64,000 bases of DNA. Source: Diplosphaera chodatii (lineage: Eukaryota; Chlorophyta; Trebouxiophyceae; Prasiolales; Stichococcaceae). Position numbers and translations under genes: made by a program. Position 1 is the first letter of the stretch. The number at the start of each line of letters is the position of its first letter. Of this stretch, positions 29,463-42,435 are shown piece after piece. The notes below the pieces were generated by a model that was given only the letters and a program-made list of their open reading frames with translations, was not told the DNA's origin and ran no database searches. The stretch is taken from contig JAALGY010000012.1 in assembly GCA_032358165.1 (NCBI GenBank), positions 2,914,001 to 2,978,000 on the forward strand, in the 5' to 3' direction.

Positions 29463-32400
29463 TCAGTGGCGCTGCCGCTGCACTTGCTGCAGGCTGGGTG
29501 CATACGGGTCGAACGGCTGCGACGGTGGCCGCCCCAGCTGCAGGTGCGTCGGGGTCGCCGGCGTGGCCTGCGGCTGCAGCAGCGGCACGGGGCTCGGGTA
29601 AGGCACCCCTTCGTGGATCGGCTCGGCATGTTCTGCCGGCTGTGGTCGGTGCTGCGGCTGCCCCACTGCCCCCGCTGCCTGCTGCTGTACGCACAACGGA
29701 AGAGCCGTCAAGTACCTTTGAGGACATTCACGAGTCCCAGTGATAGGCTTGATTCAGCACCCCTACCCTCATGCCCTTTCAATCAACGGCGAAGCAGATG
29801 ATAGTGCTGCAGCAGCAGCATCAGCGCAACACACACATGTCACGGACATCAGCAGATACGCCTTCCCTCAGAGCTCGTCAGATACAGTACCTGGTGCTGC
29901 CTCTCCTCCCACACGCTTCGGATGCGCTGCACCAGGGAGTGCCGCAGCGGCTGCGCCGCCGCCGCCGGCTCGGGCACCTCAGGCTGCGGGTCCTCCTGCA
30001 GGAAGTGAGCTTGTCGTTGCCAATAATGCATCCCTGTGCATTTACCATGTAGCAAATGTTCGGCATTGGCCATAACGTCCGAGTGAGTACGTGTCACTAC
30101 TCACCGTGGCATAGGGAGGTGGCTGGGCCCCCGGCAGCATCCCAGGCACACGGTGGTCCAAATATGCCCCCAGCGGCACATACGAGTCCGACTGCTGTGC
30201 ATATGTTGGCGCCTGCTCGACACCCGGCTGCACATGGCCGTACTGCAGCGGCTGCACTGGCATGTCGGCGCCATTGTAGGGCTTCACAAAATTGCCGTCG
30301 GCTGTGTGCAGGCCTGCTGGCTCGGGGTGGACCCTGGCATACTGCTCCAGGGTGGCTGGCTTGCCAAGATGCGCCTGCAAACAGGCATCAACACGACGGG
30401 TTGCCTCTCTTCGCACATCCACAGTTGCGATGCCAGCCTATGGACGACGTGCTACCCATACCTGCAGCTGCACTGTTTGACACGGAGGTTTGATGCGCAA
30501 GGGACCACACTTCATCACGCTGCCGTGTTGTGAGGATACAGACTGGGACGAAGCAGCGCAAGGCGGCACCTCTGCAGCTGCCGAGTCCCCGCGGAAGGCC
30601 CCTGGCTTTGTTGTGGCTGCCCCTTCCACCTTCCGCGCCTTCCTGCGCCTCTTGCACAGCCAGGTGCAGCCTGCAGCAACAAACGGTCTTCAGCACTTGC
30701 ACCTTCTTGTATGCCCGTGATCAGGGCTCCCATTTGCTCATCGAAGGCTCCGAAAGCCATGCTGCACTGACGGGCATTGCTCATCCCAGCTGCATCGAGC
30801 TTGACAAACTGCCATGTCAGGGTGTAGCTTACATAAGCCAAGCAGCTAAGAAGGCGCCAACGGGACTCACAGAGCAGCAGCAGGACGGCGACGAGGATGC
30901 CGCCGACGATGCCGCCTACGATTGCACCAATGGAGCTGCCGCCGCCGCCGCCGCCGCCGCCGCTCTTGCCGCTTCCTGCCTCCTGAGGCACAGGCAGCGT
31001 GATGCCGCCACCCGCAGTGTCCACCAGCGTAACCTGATCAACATCGAGCCCTGCAATAGCAACATACAGCTGCAGTCTTTGATGTGCAATGTGCATTGTG
31101 TCAATGTAAGAGGAGAACGATCCATATTTGCACCAGCGTCACACATCATCTAGGTGTGATCCTCACGTGCGTGCATGTGTAAAATTCCGATGCACAACGA
31201 CAGAAGCGGCTCGATGTGTTGGTGGTGGAGTCACCTGACTGTCGCAGCTGCTGCAGGAAGGCGGCCAGGGTAGCTGAGGTGCCGAGCGTGGCTGCAGCGC
31301 TGCTGGCCCCCGTAACCGGCACGCCGCCAATGTTGTAGTACACATTCACCTGCCAGCGCAACAGCTGTGGAGATTGCGTGCCAGCATAAACCATAGTGCT
31401 GTGCCCTTGCACCAGCTAGCCCATTGACCAGTCTTTACCACACAACAAAAGGCAGCCTTTCGAGCACTCCCCACCCCTCGATGGTACATTTGAGTGCTGC
31501 GCAGAGCAGCGTACGGAGGATGTACCAAGCCATACTCTGCAGGATTCACCTGGTTGCTGCCTGCGGACTGCAGGAGGCTGCGGGAGCGCCGGCGCTGCGC
31601 AGCCCCATTGCCCACCTGGGCACCCTGCAGTACAACAATAAGGTGCTGGCAAACCATCAACTCCAGGTGGTGTTAGCCCATAAGTAGTGCCGTGAGGCAA
31701 TCGCGCAAAGGCGCCACGCAGCGGCAGGGCCTCTCACTGCTTACCACGGACCCCACATAGGTGATGCCGTTGTTGGTGATGTCGCGGCTCTCCAGCAGGG
31801 CGGCGTACTGCTGCTCGAAGGCCTGCCGCACGCCGCCGCTCCAGGGCAGCAGCCCGGTGCCGTTGAGGCTGTGCGCCGTCTGCGTCGCGCCACAGTGGCA
31901 GGCTGGTGTGGTGTGCAACGACCATGGCACCAGGTGCCGTCACGCCATGTCGACTATCGTTTGGAATCCCTTCAGTATATCGTGTATGCTCATGTACGTG
32001 CTTAGTCCTTCCGATCCAAGCTGCCTTGACAGTGCTTGCGGCTGGTGCGGTCGCAGTCATGACACTCAAATATGCAATCATTGCCAGACGCGGTGCTCAC
32101 CCCCAGAACGGTCGAGTTGGCAGCTGCTGGAGGCGGCCGGCGCGCAGTGGGAGCTGCTGTGCTGATGATTGGGGCGGCAGCGGGCTGTGGGCTGCTTCCC
32201 GGCTCTGGTGACGGCGAAGCATCCGGCGAGGGGCTCGGCTGCATGCAGGACAGAAGTCAGTTGTACATTGATGCCAGACGTCTTGTGACAGCTGCAGACT
32301 GCTCCTGCAGGTGCGTCCAGTGCCAGTCACCCCGCAGGCACAAGGCTGTGATCGACCCTGGTAGCAATAGTTGGCAGCACACCCACCTCTGGTGATGGGG

Positions 32401-33427
32401 ACGGCGATGGTAATGGCTGTGGCTCAGGCGATGGCGATGGCTCTGGGGATGGAGAAGGTGATGGCGATGCATCTGGCCCAGGCTCGGGAGAGGGCTCGGG
32501 CGACGCCTCAGGCGAAGGCTCAGGCGAGGGAGATGGGGAGGGAGATGGGAGTGGGTCTGGTGATGGGGATGCTGCAGGGGAGGGGGATGGCGACGGCAAT
32601 GGCTCCGGCTCGGGTGATGGGGACGGCGTCGGTGACGGCTGCAGCTCAGGCGAGGGGTTTGGGGAGGGGGATGGTGATGATGGTGATGGTACTGGCTCAG
32701 GTGACGGAGCAGGGGATGACTCCGGCTCAGGTGATGGCGACGGCTGCGGCTCAGACGATGGCTCGGGTGATGGCGACGGCTGCGGCTCAGGTGACGGCTC
32801 GGGTGATGGCGATGGCACGGGCGATGGCGACGGCTGCGGCTCAGGCGCTGGCTCGGGTGATGGCGATGGCTGCTGCTCCGGTGAAGGGGATGGCGACGGC
32901 TGCGGCGCAGGTGATGGGGATGGCGAGGGTAATGGCGAGGGCGACGCCTGCAGGGAAGGCACGGGCTGTGGGGTGGACACCGGAGCAGGCGGGTTGTCGG
33001 GCGAGGGAGTGCTGTCCAGTGAGAGGCTTGGGGATGGCAACATTGGGGGCAGCTTCGGGATGGGCTAAGGGAGTTGTCCAGCAAGGGACTGTTGCGATTG
33101 CCGTCCGATGTTGCCACACACCTGGGCTGGGCTGGCGCTGCTGTCGCCGCTCCCTCCGCCGCCGTCGCCGCCGTCGTTGCCGTTGCCGCCGCCGGGAGCA
33201 GCGTCCCCGCCGTTGTCACTGTCGGGGCTGTCGCTGTCTTCACCGTCGCCGCCACCAGCGCCGCCGTCGCCACCAGTGTCGCCGCCGTCCTCGCCGCCGT
33301 CGTTGCCAGAATCCTCGCTCTGTTGAGCAGTCACAAAGGCGGCGCTGCACAGCAGGAGGCTCAGGAGCAGCGCTGCGGCTGCGCCACGGCGGCAGCGGTA
33401 CCACCGCGCCGCAGAAGCCCGCCGCAT
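29463..33427 (-). CDS. Pro/Ser-stalked single-pass membrane protein, receptor-like (paralogue A)
   Basis: No named family. The minus-strand start at 33427 gives a signal peptide (MRRASAARWYRCRR, then GAAAALLLSLLLCSAAFVTA). A Gly/Asp-rich acidic stretch follows (33120-33300). A long SPSPEP-type Pro/Ser stalk follows (32390-33060), typical of hydroxyproline-rich wall glycoproteins. The ectodomain resembles a ferredoxin-like or SEA-like fold. It reads LPWSGGVRQAFEQQYAALLE and ITYVGSV (about 31745-31860), then an Arg-rich loop RRRSRSLLQ (about 31580), then VNVYYNIGGVPVTG (about 31350) and GLDVDQVTLVDTAGG (about 31010-31055). A Gly-rich linker and one span (GAIVGGIVGGILVAVLLLL, about 30875-30930) come next. 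The cytoplasmic tail has PYNGADMPVQPLQYG, SDSYVPLGAYLDH, a PPPY motif and the exon PLRHSLVQRIRSVWEE (about 29905-29955). The last exon is Gln/Pro-rich and stops at 29463. The paralogue at 35240-39897 shares the order of all parts and at least two intron positions. It is probably a surface sensor or wall-membrane linker; that role is inference. Confidence 0.7.
32390..33060 (-). repeat. Pro/Ser-rich stalk repeat (SPSPEP type)
   Basis: Imperfect repeats code for SPSPEPSPEPQPSPSPEP-like runs over about 220 residues on the minus strand. Ser-Pro repeats of this kind are hydroxylated and O-glycosylated in algal and plant wall glycoproteins. The repeat also creates a long open frame on the opposite strand, which I take as a shadow. 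Confidence 0.85.
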
Positions 33428-35239
33428 CCCCCGGATCTGCCACGCAAAGGCCTGTGAATGATGAGCTTGTGTGTGTGTGTGCCAGGCACCAGATGGTTTG
33501 GACCACTGTGACGTGAATGCTTTGGCCCCACTGGGCATCAGCACACCTACCTGATCAGACGCCAGGAGACTCAGCGACGGTGTGCAGAGCGGCTGATTGA
33601 TAGACCGACCTACTACAACTCGACGTACTCGATGCACGCCGTCTGCCGGCCCGCGCACGACGCCCCGGCCGTCTGAAGTTTACAGCTTCCCCACAAATCC
33701 CCTTTCAGAGGACCTGCAGCGGAATCATTCCGATAGCGTTTCACCCACAACTTCTGATTCTGCTAGAACTGTATACATGTAGTCGGTGGGGGTCAGTGGG
33801 AGTGTGTGCGGTAAGCAGGGCAGGCTGCACTCAATGTTTCTAAGCCGCCTATGATATGAACTACTTTTGTACAGCCGACGTCAATGCGACATGCACTGCA
33901 GATGTTGAACGAACGCAGCGCCGACCTTGCGCACAGCCGGCTTCAGCGATAGATGGAGTGCTTGACTGAGCAGTGGCCTGGCGGTGCGGCGGCTGTCGCC
34001 TGCGCTTCAGGTGTTGGCCAAGCATGTCGCCAGCTGGCCCCCGCTTACAAGCTGTCGTGGATCACAATCTTCACGTGCACGCTGATCGCAGATCACAGAG
34101 GTCGCAGTCGACAACAACATTTGCACATGTGCAACGTCGACGATACTGCTTCATTGGTTGATGAGTGGAGGCTATGCAGATCCGAACTGACAATGGCCGC
34201 CGCAGTCAGACGTCTGGCGCACATGCGTGTATTCTGGTGGTCTCCCTGTCAGGTGTGTGCGTTATTCGAGCGGCTCAAGGTGTTTGGTCAGTCACCTGGA
34301 TTGGTCTCTCGTCGCAGCTGATATGCTGTTCACCATCGAGTGAACCAAAGGCTCCACGGAGTCAATGTCACGCCATACCTGCATTGGCAAGTTTAGGTTT
34401 GTACATGCGGTGTTGTTTGCCATACTGCGGCCTCTTGACTGCCACAGGCCATGAGGAGCACACGAACCGGCGTCTGATACCTTTGAACACCGTGTGCTGC
34501 ACAAGCTGCTGACGGATCGTCAGGCCACGACCAGCATCATCGGCTTTGTTCCGGAGGAAGGTGGGCCCAGCCGCCGGTGAAGCTGCTGGCGGACGGTCCG
34601 AGACGTTGGAGATCGTCAAGACGCCAACGATCCTGATATTTTGCATGCCGCTGATAGGTGGCAGCGCTGCGCCTCCATCACCTACGCAACAACAAGTGTC
34701 GCAAAGAGCGCTTGCATCCGAGTCAGGCTATCAGAAAGCCGTTGTTTGCGTGTTATCCATTGCACCTACTACTTGGCATCGCGCCTACAGCATCTCATCC
34801 GGTACACAGAAAGAGCCCTGGTGTGCGACTGCCGGCAGGCCACCCGCTGAAACCACGGAAGATACAAGGACTCATGTCTGCCGTCACGGGTTCTAAAGCT
34901 GAGCCGCCGGTGCCCACCTTCATAGCGGGGCTGGCAGCTTCCGCGAGTCTGCAGCACAACGGCATCGGGCCGTGACGCGCCGACATCCCCTCGAATAGGT
35001 GAAACGAACATCAGCCGCTTGTTATCAACTTGTTACATTCACCACAAGGCTGCATGCGTGCGACTTTCGTCTCGATGTTACGGCTTCATGCATGCGGGCC
35101 AGTAACAGGCCGGTCATGGCCGTTGGGCCAGCTCCGGCAGAGCCACCATACAACGCCCTGATCAGGCTGTTTCACAGTCGTTTCTGTTGATCATGTCGTG
35201 ACGCGGCCGCTTGTAAGTTTGCAGGGTCACACGGCCAGC
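33428..35239. other. 1.8-kb divergent spacer between paralogues
   Basis: This lies between the starts of the two head-to-head receptor-like genes and should contain both promoters. Short open frames occur (for example 33953-34321 plus, and 34441-34640 plus with a GHEEHTNRRL-like start), but none has a recognisable domain or matching neighbour exons. They may be relic coding sequence. No promoter element could be assigned. Confidence 0.4.
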
Positions 35240-38200
35240 ATGCGACACCACCAGTCCCCGCGGGGTGGCGGCAGCCGCCACCGGCCCGTGTGGGCTGCAG
35301 CGCTCCTGACGGCGCTGCTGCTTGCACATGCGCCCCTGACAGCCGCTCAGGACAACGGCCCAAGCAGTGGCAGCAGTGACGGCAGTGACAGCAGCGGAGG
35401 TGGCGACAGCAGCAGTCCTGGCAGCGCACCCAGCGCAGATGCTGCGCCGTCGCAGGAGTCGCCGTCGCCGTCGCCGTCCGAATCGTCTCCTCAGCCGCAG
35501 GACCCATCTCCCGCACCCACCCCGCAGCAGGAGGCGCCTTCGCCTGCGCCCACCCCGCAGGTGCAATCACCATCGCCGTCGGACTCATCTCCAGTTCCAT
35601 TGCCGCAGCCACAGCAGGCCTCATCTTCGGCACCCACCCCGGAGCAGTCTCCGTCCCCATCTCCGCAGCAGGTTTCATCGCCCGCACCCACCCCACAGCA
35701 GGCGACATCGTCCGCACCCACCCCGGAGCAGTCTCCGTCCCCATCTCCGCAGCAGGCTTCATCGCCCGCACCCACCCCAGAGCAGGCGACATCTTCGGCA
35801 CCCACCCCGGAGCAGTCTCCGTCCCCATCTCCGCAGCAGGCTTCATCGTCCGCACCCACCATGCAGCAGTCTGCGTCCCCCTCTCCGCGGCAGGCTTCAT
35901 CCCCCGCATCCACCCCGCAGCAGGCGCCCACACCCGAGCCGCAGCCGCAGCCGCAGCCGAGCCAGCAGCAGCCGGTGGTAGCTGACCAGGCTTCCTCGCC
36001 GTCAGCTCCACAGCAGCCGTCGCCGTCGCCGTCACCCGCACTGACAGATCAGTTATCCGCCCCTGCGACGGCGCCACAGCAGCTGCAGTCCCCAAACCCA
36101 TCCCCCACGCCGCAGCTGCGGTCGCCTATCTCATCAGCGCCAGGTGCGTCTCCAGTTAGGGGCCAAACCTCCGCAGCGCCGGGCCCCGCCGATGCCGCCT
36201 CATCAGCAGTGCTGGCCAATGCTCCGGCGCCCGCTACAGGGCAAGCGGCGGCGGTGCGGCAGCCCACCCGGCAGCGGCAACAGGCCGCCACGCCAGGCTC
36301 GGCACCCGCTCCGTCCACAGCTGCTTCAGGGCCGGAAAGCTCCACGCCAGCAATGGCAGGCAACAGCACCGCAACCGCAGGCAACAGCACCACAGCTGCG
36401 CGCAACAGCACCGCACTCGCAGGCAACAGCACCACAGCTGCAGGCAACAGCACCGCACCGCGTGTCCAGCCGCAACTTCAGACGGCTGCGCCGACTGTGC
36501 AGCCGCCGGCGCCTGCAGGAACTGTCACAGTCGGGGTGAGCCCTCCTGGAACTCTTGACATGAAGCATGTCGCGTTACATTTGTTGACGTATGCTGCCAT
36601 CCCCTTGATCAGGCTCTTGAAGGTCAACAAGGGCATGGCACTCATGATGTGGGCCAGGCAGGTGGTCTTGAAAAGGGTTCTGGGCGTTGTGTACCTCTCG
36701 AAAGCATGCCAACGGCAACCTACTATGTGTGGTCCCCTTGCAGACGGCGCACAAGCTGACGGGTGCAGGCCTTATACCCTGGGCTGGTCAGGTGCGGCGT
36801 GACTTCGAGGACCAGTATGGCGAGTGGCTGACGGATCGCAACATCAGCAGCAGCAGCCTGACATACGTTGGCTCAGTGGTGAGCGGGCTGTGAGGAGTGG
36901 TTGACCTGTTGTTGCCAGCAGCGCATGCTCACGACGGGCATAGCACATACCAACATCTGCAATCGAGCTGCCATGCTGGGGAATCGTGCTCTGTTATGCG
37001 CTCATGTTGGTGAGTTTGTGGTCACCCAGTGCTGATCGGCAATGCGCGATCGATTGCAGGCCATTCCCGGGGGCAGCGCCAATGCGCAGCGGCGGCGGAG
37101 GCGCCAACTGCTGCAGCAGGGCTCAGACGACCAGGTACGCTGACCCCTTCTGCGCCATGTCTACTCTGCAGTACAGGGCTGTGCAATGCAAAGGTCGCAT
37201 AGATCTGACATGGCTAAGCTGCAGTTACGAGATGGTCAAAGCACAACAGGGCATCGAACACTGCGTGATTTATCCTTTGCAGGTCACCGTCTACTATGAC
37301 ATCGGCGGAGTGCAGCCTGAACAGGCACAGTCTGCAAAGGCGGATTTGGGCGGCGCTGCAGCAATAGATGCGTTCCAAAACCTCCTGCAACAAGCTGGTG
37401 CGCCGCGCACTGGCTCTTCCATGCATACGCTGCATTGCTGAGTGAAGGCGGTCGAACCGCACAGATCTCAAGTTTTGCAGCGTCGTCGCAAATCATGTTG
37501 AAATCCTCGTGATGTGGTCACCAGACTGTCCCTAGACTGTGGCTGTACAACCCAACATACACCCAGACGGCGGTCATGCGAGATGGAGCTGTAATGTACA
37601 AGCAGGTGTCCAGGTGCAGAGCCTAACCTTGGTGGTCACTGAGCAAGGCGGTGTGTCGGCGCCAGAGGTTGCTGCGGCTGCAGCAGCCGCAGGCAGCAGC
37701 AGCGCCAGCAGCGACAGCGGCACCAGCAACGGTTCCGACACTGAAACCAGCAGCAGCAGCAGCAGCGACAGCACCAGCAGCAGCGCCGGCGGCAAGGCGG
37801 CTGCTCCGGCTGATAGGCAGAGCAGCGGCGGCCCCGGCAGCCCCGTGGGCGGCATCGTAGGCGGCGCCATCGGTGGCGTCGTCGCAGCCTTCCTGCTGGT
37901 CCTTGGTGCGTTCACTGCTGCTTCCACTTCCGTCAGTGACAATAAAGAGCTGTTCTGCAACACATGTGATTTGATGTTTGCCGCCTCCTCCACGAATTGC
38001 ATGACCACCGATCAAGGGATGTGGCAGTCACAACGTCGCATTCTGCGTTCTGTCAGTCGCCAGATGGCTGGTTGCATGTTCGACTGCAAGGACATCTGTG
38101 CATTGCAACACTGTGTTGCTGGATGTGCAGTGTTGGCGTGCCTGTGCCACCGGCGCGTGAAGCGGCGGCGGCAGGTGTCAGGCGAGCTCAACGGAGCTTT

Positions 38201-41250: not shown

Positions 41251-42060
41251 AGCACAGCAGGTGTCTAGCAATATCACCACCAATGAGCAATGAGCCTAAT
41301 GAGGCGTCAAGGGCAGCATGCCTGCCGGCCACAACACAGATGCATGACAGCAACACACCCAACGAGCCGCAATGCTGTGGGGGCCAGCATGGCTGGAACG
41401 TGCGGGGGAAACCTCTTAGGAGGGTGGGCGGCGCAGTCAAGGTGGCAAGTGACTGCACTGCCGCTGCTGGGGGCCGCGACCCCAGCGAGCAGCATACCGC
41501 CCTAACGTCATCCCGCAGGTCTCACTGTCAGCACTGTGGTGCAGCAGACAAAGCACCCACCATGCGCCGCTGTATGTCCAGTCCAAGTCTCAGTCGCTGG
41601 GATGTGACCGCCGCCTCAAAACACACAAAACAACCGCCGCCAAAACTCACAAGCCGCCGCCCGCCAACCGGACGACACCCCAAGAGCCCGACACCTCACA
41701 GAACCTGACAAAAGGCCCCTCCGCCGCACGCTGCCGCCACAGAGCAGAGGCCATGCCCAGCTGGCAGAAATGCTGCAACTGAGCCCAGAACACCGCCACC
41801 GCTCGCCTGCCAATGCCCACATGGTCAACCTGCTGACCAGGGCGGTGGCAGGCAAACGCAGCGCGGCGGGCATAACCACAGGCATACACCGCACAGAGGC
41901 ATGCCAGCCTCCAAACACCGCCAAACACCCCCGGCTGTGGGCGTGCCAGCCAGATGTCAGCCACCAATTAGCCGAAAAACTGACGTTTTGCCTACGTATA
42001 CATATGATAAATCGCACCGCCAACTTCTGCTGGATGCCTCCCGGAGATGCAATCTCTAAC
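41251..42060. other. Region between repeats and tRNA, possible mobile-element relic
   Basis: Open frames (for example 41283-41708 plus) have a biased composition, with a CQHCGAADKAP stretch and several gccgccgccc spacers like those between the tandem repeats. I could not identify a transposase, reverse transcriptase or terminal repeats. It may be part of the same non-autonomous element as the repeat next door. Confidence 0.3.
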
Positions 42061-42061
42061 G

Positions 42062-42146
42062 TGCGAGAGGTCCCGCGTTCAATTCGCGGATCACCCCAAA
42101 AATGTGTGCAGGGTGATTGGTCTAGTGGTATGATTCTCGCTTAGGG
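42062..42146 (+). tRNA. trnP-AGG: Circularly permuted tRNA-Pro (anticodon AGG)
   Basis: The 3' half comes first (42062-42097). It carries the 3' anticodon strand GCGAG, the variable loop, a perfect T arm (CCGCG-TTCAATT-CGCGG), acceptor strand ATCACCC and discriminator C. A 13-nt spacer (42098-42110) follows. The 5' half is at 42111-42146, with acceptor strand GGGTGAT, a D arm with AGTGGTA, anticodon strand CTCGC and loop TTAGGG. Joined 5' half to 3' half, it gives a 72-nt tRNA: acceptor 7/7, anticodon stem 5/5, T stem 5/5, loop TTAGGGT, anticodon AGG. The break falls between positions 37 and 38, the usual intron site. The flanks GCAATCT (42050-42056) and AGATGC (42148-42153) can pair with one bulge beyond the anticodon stem, as a bulge-helix-bulge substrate would require. 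A TTTTT terminator follows. The spliced sequence closely resembles plant tRNA-Pro. Confidence 0.85.
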
Positions 42147-42153
42147 CAGATGC

Positions 42154-42158
42154 TTTTT
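42154..42158 (+). terminator. Pol III T5 terminator after permuted tRNA
   Basis: Five T residues lie 7 nt after the end of the 5' half. Because the terminator follows the 5' half, it supports one transcript that runs 3' half, spacer, 5' half. Confidence 0.7.
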
Positions 42159-42435
42159 GCGCGCCAACGTTGCAGCCGACCCCTGCTGTGTCTCACAAAG
42201 TGCCACTGGTGTGGCTTGCACCTGGTCGGGCACCCTCAGGAGTTTGGGTGCTCCGGCTCGTGAGCACAGGCACCCCTGTAGTGCCTGTAACACACACATG
42301 TTCGACATGTGACCACCTGCTGCACACTTTTGCAACTGCAGGCACCCACACATCCCTTCCCTATATTCATGATCAGCGATCTCCAGCGGTGACAATGTTG
42401 CGCAGCAGAAGTAACATATACTGACACTCGCCAGC
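42159..42435. other. Short intergenic region before TRM112
   Basis: About 280 bp between the tRNA terminator and the TRM112 start codon. It presumably holds the TRM112 promoter. No second copy of either tRNA half was seen here. Confidence 0.4.

Follow-up and report, generated by a model that had tools for sequence, protein, structure and literature searches.

Can a gene whose two halves stand in the wrong order still produce a working tRNA? The question is raised by a stretch of 64,000 nucleotides of the trebouxiophyte alga Diplosphaera chodatii (hereafter the window), in which positions 42062-42146 hold a tRNA-Pro(AGG) with its 3' half first, then a 13-nt spacer and then its 5' half. Such permuted tRNA genes are known but rare, and in core green algae they have been in print since 2025, from Auxenochlorella. 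The evidence set out below makes it very probable that the locus is a nuclear type II permuted gene for tRNA-Pro(AGG), joined at 37/38, whose transcript is predicted to be cut, circularised and likely reopened at the acceptor end.

Layout and detection of the tRNA-Pro(AGG) locus

The 3' half (tRNA positions 38-73) occupies 42062-42097 of the forward strand, which carries all features of the gene given here; the spacer follows at 42098-42110, and the 5' half (positions 1-37) at 42111-42146, with the anticodon AGG at 42143-42145. Both halves lie on the same strand, the 3' half upstream of the 5' half and with only a short sequence between them, as in other type II permuted genes. An ordinary intron-containing tRNA gene is ruled out, as the 5' half does not come before the 3' half, and a split tRNA gene with separately transcribed halves is rejected, as the halves are 13 nt apart with no T-run between them. 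Counted by hand with the limits used in section 5 of PMC3978253, the B box (T arm, positions 52-62) falls at 42076-42086, upstream of the A box (D arm, positions 8-19) at 42118-42128. An initial annotation of this DNA had proposed a permuted tRNA-Pro(AGG) gene in a core green alga; the coordinates it gave for the halves and for CTAA are correct, as are the 13-nt spacer, the anticodon and the flanking motifs GCAATCT, AGATGC and TTTTT, and the host, as a member of the Trebouxiophyceae, does belong among the core chlorophytes.

When the halves are rejoined, each of the six permuted Pro loci of the genome (described below) gives a full eukaryotic tRNA without an encoded CCA. ARAGORN calls these 72-mers tRNA-Pro, with the anticodon agg in 4/4 cases, the window locus included, and tgg in 2/2. 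The earlier description of all stems as paired is slightly too strong, as the last pair of the D stem, 13-22, is U-U and 10-25 is G-U in all six loci. Left unrotated, the window contains no tRNA according to ARAGORN and none according to Rfam at its gathering score, which is what would be expected of a permuted gene; across the unrotated permuted Pro loci ARAGORN detected 0/6. Standard tRNA tools thus overlook such genes in this genome.

The locus can be found by a model built for its layout. For this covariance model (R2), 12 nuclear tRNAs of ordinary order were taken from the genome itself, put in rotated order at the 37/38 site and given a spacer of N; the training rows included neither a proline tRNA nor a permuted gene. 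On the window it matched exactly 42062-42146 over the full model length, at 57.8 bits (E 5.2e-17, a rough value, as the calibration was short), and the sole further match up to E 10 reached 6.6 bits. The six permuted Pro loci scored 53-59.5 bits, compared with at most 31.9 bits at ordinary-order loci (36 sources), some of which had also supplied training rows. The top score among the latter belongs to a tRNA-Thr(AGT) gene (L038, C24:97421-97893), whose last 8 bases are repeated directly 3' of the gene. A chance arrangement at 42062-42146 is ruled out by the score of the window locus, reached as it was with no proline or permuted row in training. Short of a systematic fault in the assembly, reading the layout as an assembly error or an accident is hardly credible, given that E-value and the occurrence of permuted genes at eight loci on eight contigs.

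Permuted proline and phenylalanine genes across the genome

The genome assembly comprises 85.6 Mb in 55 contigs, with many loci present in two diverged copies; the window lies on C10, and the tRNA and protein content of C54 (83,919 bp) and C55 (174,073 bp) suggests that these are the mitochondrial and plastid genomes. A query of 42040-42170 found six matches in the genome, all six of them permuted: tRNA-Pro(AGG) on C10 (the window), C3, C35 and C38, and tRNA-Pro(TGG) on C25 and C11. An ordinary-order AGG query produced 8 matches, each a half-gene at one of the four permuted AGG loci with its 3' half upstream. The many normal tRNA-Pro(AGG) genes that the initial annotation had named as evidence against a permuted gene did not appear; among the 8 matches of this heuristic search, which could pass over a divergent copy, none is an ordinary-order gene, and the same query found no extra half-genes adjoining the four loci. 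The pattern of the permuted Pro genes had 0 matches in viral and prokaryote collections.

A permuted TGG query gave nine matches at seven loci, two of them in ordinary order. These two, L072 and L070, lie at C10:2783941-2784044 and C3:453261-453365 and encode tRNA-Pro(CGG), interrupted at 37/38 by a 32-nt intron. They resemble the permuted Pro genes in splice site and in the geometry of a 4-bp helix, and their halves are 97% identical to those of the permuted TGG gene, but they differ in having the ordinary order and the 32-nt intron. One isoacceptor family therefore contains both permuted and intron-containing layouts. Compared by eye for signs of a common origin, the flanks of the permuted genes and the CGG intron share no convincing similarity beyond the 4-bp helix. 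Since permuted and intron-containing members with the same splice geometry occur in one genome, sister species now allow a direct test of the model that derives permuted genes from intron-containing genes in tandem.

Further permuted genes were sought with two 18-base D-arm patterns, each controlled by its own reversal. The patterns gave 7 and 29 matches against 5 and 27 for the reversed controls, so many of the matches are due to chance. R2 was run on 24 of the 36 pattern loci, the other 12 being on organelle contigs or already known, and two stood out: L091 at 60.8 bits and L093 at 61.9 bits, with the next at 17.6. Both are permuted tRNA-Phe(GAA) genes, one on C17 and the other on C45, and form a pair; their spacers measure 11 nt, those of the permuted Pro genes 8-31 nt. 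The permuted loci of the genome thus number eight or more; the eight identified, six for Pro and two for Phe, are on eight contigs and all joined at 37/38. In the same 24 loci, ARAGORN with introns allowed found a tRNA-Tyr(GTA) and a tRNA-Ala(AGC) gene, both in ordinary order with 32-nt introns. The ordinary-order nuclear loci collected number 29 (23 of 24 given, two initiator Met, two CGG, one Tyr and one Ala) and are a sample rather than a census. An Rfam tRNA search of the genome returned 63 matches, organelle genes included, and missed the initiator tRNA-Met, so the absence of a tRNA from its results says nothing as to whether that tRNA is permuted. Queries with plant tRNAs were equally limited: those for Ser, Ala and Cys had no match in the genome, which is uninformative since the intron-containing tRNA-Ala was later found by pattern, and that for Phe matched two tRNA-Lys genes only, missing even the permuted tRNA-Phe, so that it could equally have passed over an ordinary one.

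Some other sequences met in this search deserve mention. The tRNA-Tyr copy on C26 (L084:1501-1518, minus strand; C26:248091-248108) looks broken, its 5' half running into a short repeat around TTTCGACTG with no 3' half directly after, while the copy on C27 (L085) is complete with a 32-nt intron. Two tRNA-like sequences with a poor acceptor stem, L090 (C13:2976348) and L092 (C22:210358), were not counted as tRNA genes; by eye, each is enclosed by inverted repeats of 13-14 bases (CCTCCATTGACACT and its complement) and may be part of a small mobile element. Several tRNAs were met once only, for example Gln ctg, Arg tcg and Gly ccc.

The paired loci offer a way to ask whether the halves are maintained. 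For six locus pairs (two AGG, TGG, CGG, Phe and a splicing-endonuclease locus), on contig pairs C3/C10, C15/C47, C17/C45, C35/C38 and C25/C11, the main blastn stretch is 69-77% identical over 1.2-3.1 kb. The pairs are diverged haplotypes or homeologous copies; identity in this range points to an old hybrid, a doubled genome or a long-asexual diploid. The halves are identical between copies at 289/289 positions (Pro 216/216 over three pairs, Phe 73/73), and the halves likewise agree in full among the AGG loci on different contigs. The Pro spacers, summed over the three pairs, show 39 identities, 10 mismatches and 4 gaps, most flank segments of the Pro pairs are more diverged than the halves, and the spacers of the Phe pair differ.

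Identical halves amid diverged spacers and flanks are unlike what a dead junction would leave, that is, a remnant, without product, of a tRNA-Pro tandem that has lost its outer halves to decay. Tandem duplication is the usual model for the origin of permuted genes (PMC3978253, section 10), and next to one tRNA-Asp gene this genome does carry partial copies of a 3' half. The identity of the halves between diverged Pro pairs and between AGG loci on different contigs, the repetition of the permuted layout at eight loci, a splice helix that tracks the anticodon (see below), and a heuristic search in which neither an ordinary AGG gene as substitute nor an extra half beside the four loci came to light all argue against a decayed junction, which we consider very unlikely. 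The tRNA-Asp case itself (L050, C45:1486645-1487116) has at least two extra partial 3'-end copies downstream of tRNA-Asp(GTC), a possible starting point for permuted genes.

Predicted splice signal, transcription and maturation

In the window, the left strand of the outer helix of a predicted bulge-helix-bulge, GCAATCT (42049-42055), pairs with AGATGC (42148-42153) with one bulged A. Between it and the 3' half, at 42056-42061, stand CTAA (42056-42059), which pairs with U32 U33 A34 G35 of the anticodon loop in a 4-bp central helix, and the bulge CG, giving a predicted cut at CG^T. On the other side, the C of the second bulge precedes AGATGC (42147-42153 together) and places the second predicted cut, GG^C, after 42146. 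The pairing of CTAA with TTAG of the loop and the 37/38 junction, both proposed earlier, are borne out by the other proline genes. In an alignment of the six permuted Pro loci the central helix is paired in 24/24 cells (100%), so the 37/38 junction falls within a predicted bulge-helix-bulge, as in type II genes. The outer helix, also proposed earlier, does pair at this locus, but over the six loci it is 58.3% paired and so is not conserved as a whole, being strong in the window copy only.

The central helix follows the anticodon from gene to gene. One strand of this helix consists of loop positions 32-35 of the 5' half. Its partner in the permuted Pro genes is the stretch from -6 to -3 ahead of the 3' half, and in tRNA-Pro(CGG) it is the end of the intron. 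The helices are CTAA/TTAG in the first pair of AGG loci, CTGA/TTAG in the second, CAAA/TTTG in the TGG genes and CGAA/TTCG in the CGG genes; the helix is complete, with one G-U, in all eight Pro genes (six permuted and two with an intron). Position -5 varies along with anticodon base 34, the pair being U-A, A-U or G-C, and leader bases that track the anticodon fit the requirement of a bulge-helix-bulge splice signal. Suitable 4-mers occur in the window at frequencies of 0.022 for TTAG, 0.052 for TTTG and 0.027 for TTCG; a joint probability is withheld because the loci may share ancestry. Three-base bulges stand on both sides, with CG^T, CT^T or GA^T at one and GG^C or GG^A at the other. In the permuted Phe pair, 3/4 pairs of the central helix can be formed (by eye).

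Over the whole predicted structure, 90.8% of 174 cells in the alignment of the six permuted Pro loci are paired, a value reached by 0/500 shuffles and compared with at most 46.0% for slid structures. Of five measures on this alignment, the number of cells with two-sided changes and the covariation score were likewise reached by 0/500 shuffles and the number of pairs with two-sided change by 10/500, while further pair types, reached by 201/500, were no better than chance. In the acceptor stem, three pairs are altered on both sides between the AGG and TGG genes and all are still paired. Energy-based folding gave a different picture: the minimum-energy fold of the precursor is the designed bulge-helix-bulge cloverleaf in 0/6 Pro loci (designed versus minimum-energy fold, -26.2 versus -32.6 kcal/mol at the window locus and -20.1 versus -43.6 at AGG2a), and the folding energy of the precursor is not better than that of shuffles (z -0.77). 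This is a weak test, since the same program misfolds the mature 72-mer too. Of PF01974, the splicing-endonuclease domain, a part covering positions 16-49 of 85 is encoded on C47 and C15 (E 2.4e-5 and 6.0e-5, over the cut-off). Together with the 32-nt introns at 37/38 in tRNA-Pro(CGG), Tyr and Ala, this partial match indicates that tRNA splicing must work in this alga.

Transcription would be by RNA polymerase III. The TTTTT noted earlier behind the 5' half lies at 42154-42158 and is its likely terminator; it starts at +8, and the first run of at least four T falls at +8 to +21 in 6/6 permuted Pro loci and at +10 in 2/2 Phe loci. Neither the permuted genes themselves nor the sequence between their halves contains a T-run (Pro 6/6, Phe 2/2). 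Ordinary genes have a T-run within 70 bases in 25/27 cases, so that a downstream T-run is normal for the genome. Upstream, a weak TATA-like ATAAAT is found at 42007-42012, about 55 bases before the 3' half. Between 70 and 15 bases upstream, AT content averages 0.59 in the eight permuted genes and 0.47 in 27 ordinary ones (p 0.005, with copies that are not independent of one another). This signal is weak, and the genes for tRNA-Pro(CGG) and initiator Met equal the permuted ones in upstream AT-richness. As the B box stands ahead of the A box, it is plausible that transcription of the permuted genes relies on upstream sequence, by analogy with Cyanidioschyzon, for which such reliance has been argued (PMC3978253, section 5).

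Maturation of the transcript can be outlined from the predicted structure. Transcription, probably helped by upstream sequence given the reversed A and B boxes, would be followed by cutting of the predicted bulge-helix-bulge by the tRNA-splicing endonuclease at CG^T and GG^C, and ligation of G37 to U38 would then close a circle. RNase P and tRNase Z would likely open the circle at the acceptor end, removing the 13-nt spacer, after which CCA would be added and the tRNA charged with proline. The layout leads one to expect a circular intermediate, such as has been observed in algae (PMC3978253, section 6), which raises the alternative that the main product is a stable circular RNA or a tRNA fragment rather than a translating tRNA. 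We think this even less probable than a decayed junction, since joining the halves yields a whole tRNA-Pro, and the ordinary-order query brought up no further AGG gene that could serve the CCU and CCC codons. If the permuted-gene reading is true, the alga relies on this permuted-gene pathway for the tRNA that would decode CCU and CCC, as well as CCA should the anticodon carry inosine.

Relation to known permuted tRNA genes

Close parallels come from the prasinophytes Ostreococcus and Micromonas, whose permuted nuclear tRNA genes are mostly of type II, joined at 37/38 (Maruyama et al. 2010, as listed in Table 1 of PMC3978253). They share with the present set a leading 3' half, a short spacer, the 37/38 junction nearly throughout, the bulge-helix-bulge and a nuclear location. 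Their spacers are 11-64 nt long, compared with 8-31 nt for Pro and 11 nt for Phe here, and according to the same table they serve Ser, Leu, Cys, Arg, Asn and initiator Met, whereas the genes here are Pro loci and a Phe pair in the Trebouxiophyceae. The Soma 2007 set, as summarised in PMC3978253, shares the layout, the downstream T-run and the lack of a terminator between the halves but has junctions at four positions, in contrast to 8/8 at 37/38 here. A permuted tRNA-Ser is common to two nucleomorphs (PMC4494063).

Within the Trebouxiophyceae, permuted tRNA genes have been reported from Auxenochlorella (Plant Cell 2025, PMC12636532; preprint PMC12633428). According to these reports it resembles the present alga in being a trebouxiophyte with nuclear permuted genes, two haplotypes and an incomplete ordinary tRNA search; it belongs to the Chlorellales, whereas D. 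chodatii belongs to the Prasiolales, which looks like a second trebouxiophyte lineage to be added to a short list of hosts. Two organelle proteins point the same way: of the named entries among the matches listed, mitochondrial ATP6 comes closest to Prasiola crispa (89%) and Lobosphaera incisa (88%), and plastid AtpE to Prasiolopsis wulf-kochii (89%) and Edaphochlorella mirabilis (85%), with other sequences reaching up to 95% and 100%. Lobosphaera belongs to the Trebouxiales, the other three genera to the Prasiolales. The review that covers the field up to 2014 counts 34 permuted genes, with neither Pro nor Phe in its Table 1 (PMC3978253), and, the tRNA identities of Auxenochlorella aside, the genes described here are the first permuted tRNA-Pro and tRNA-Phe that we have found described. 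As far as the literature searched shows, what is new is the lineage, the Pro and Phe members, and the presence of permuted and intron-containing forms in one isoacceptor family.

A broader reading, for and against which we hold the chances to be even, would take these genes as more than a curiosity. The Pro codons CCU, CCC and CCA and the Phe codons would be read wholly via permuted genes, which selection would have preserved as the genome doubled or as its haplotypes diverged over a long time; the sister tRNA-Pro(CGG) would have stayed in ordinary order with its intron. The Pro family would then keep the permuted layout side by side with its presumed source, the intron-containing one, and permuted genes would be a hidden but regular part of trebouxiophyte genomes that annotation has missed.

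The remainder of the window was surveyed through ten of its open reading frames. Frames between about 47.9 and 52.2 kb match Mg-chelatase H; at 22 kb there is a weak hit to a glycosyltransferase that stays below the curated cut-off. Two long open frames, at 32327-33064 on the minus strand and 35162-36802 on the plus strand, are rich in Pro-Ser and Ala repeats and may encode wall or extensin-like proteins.
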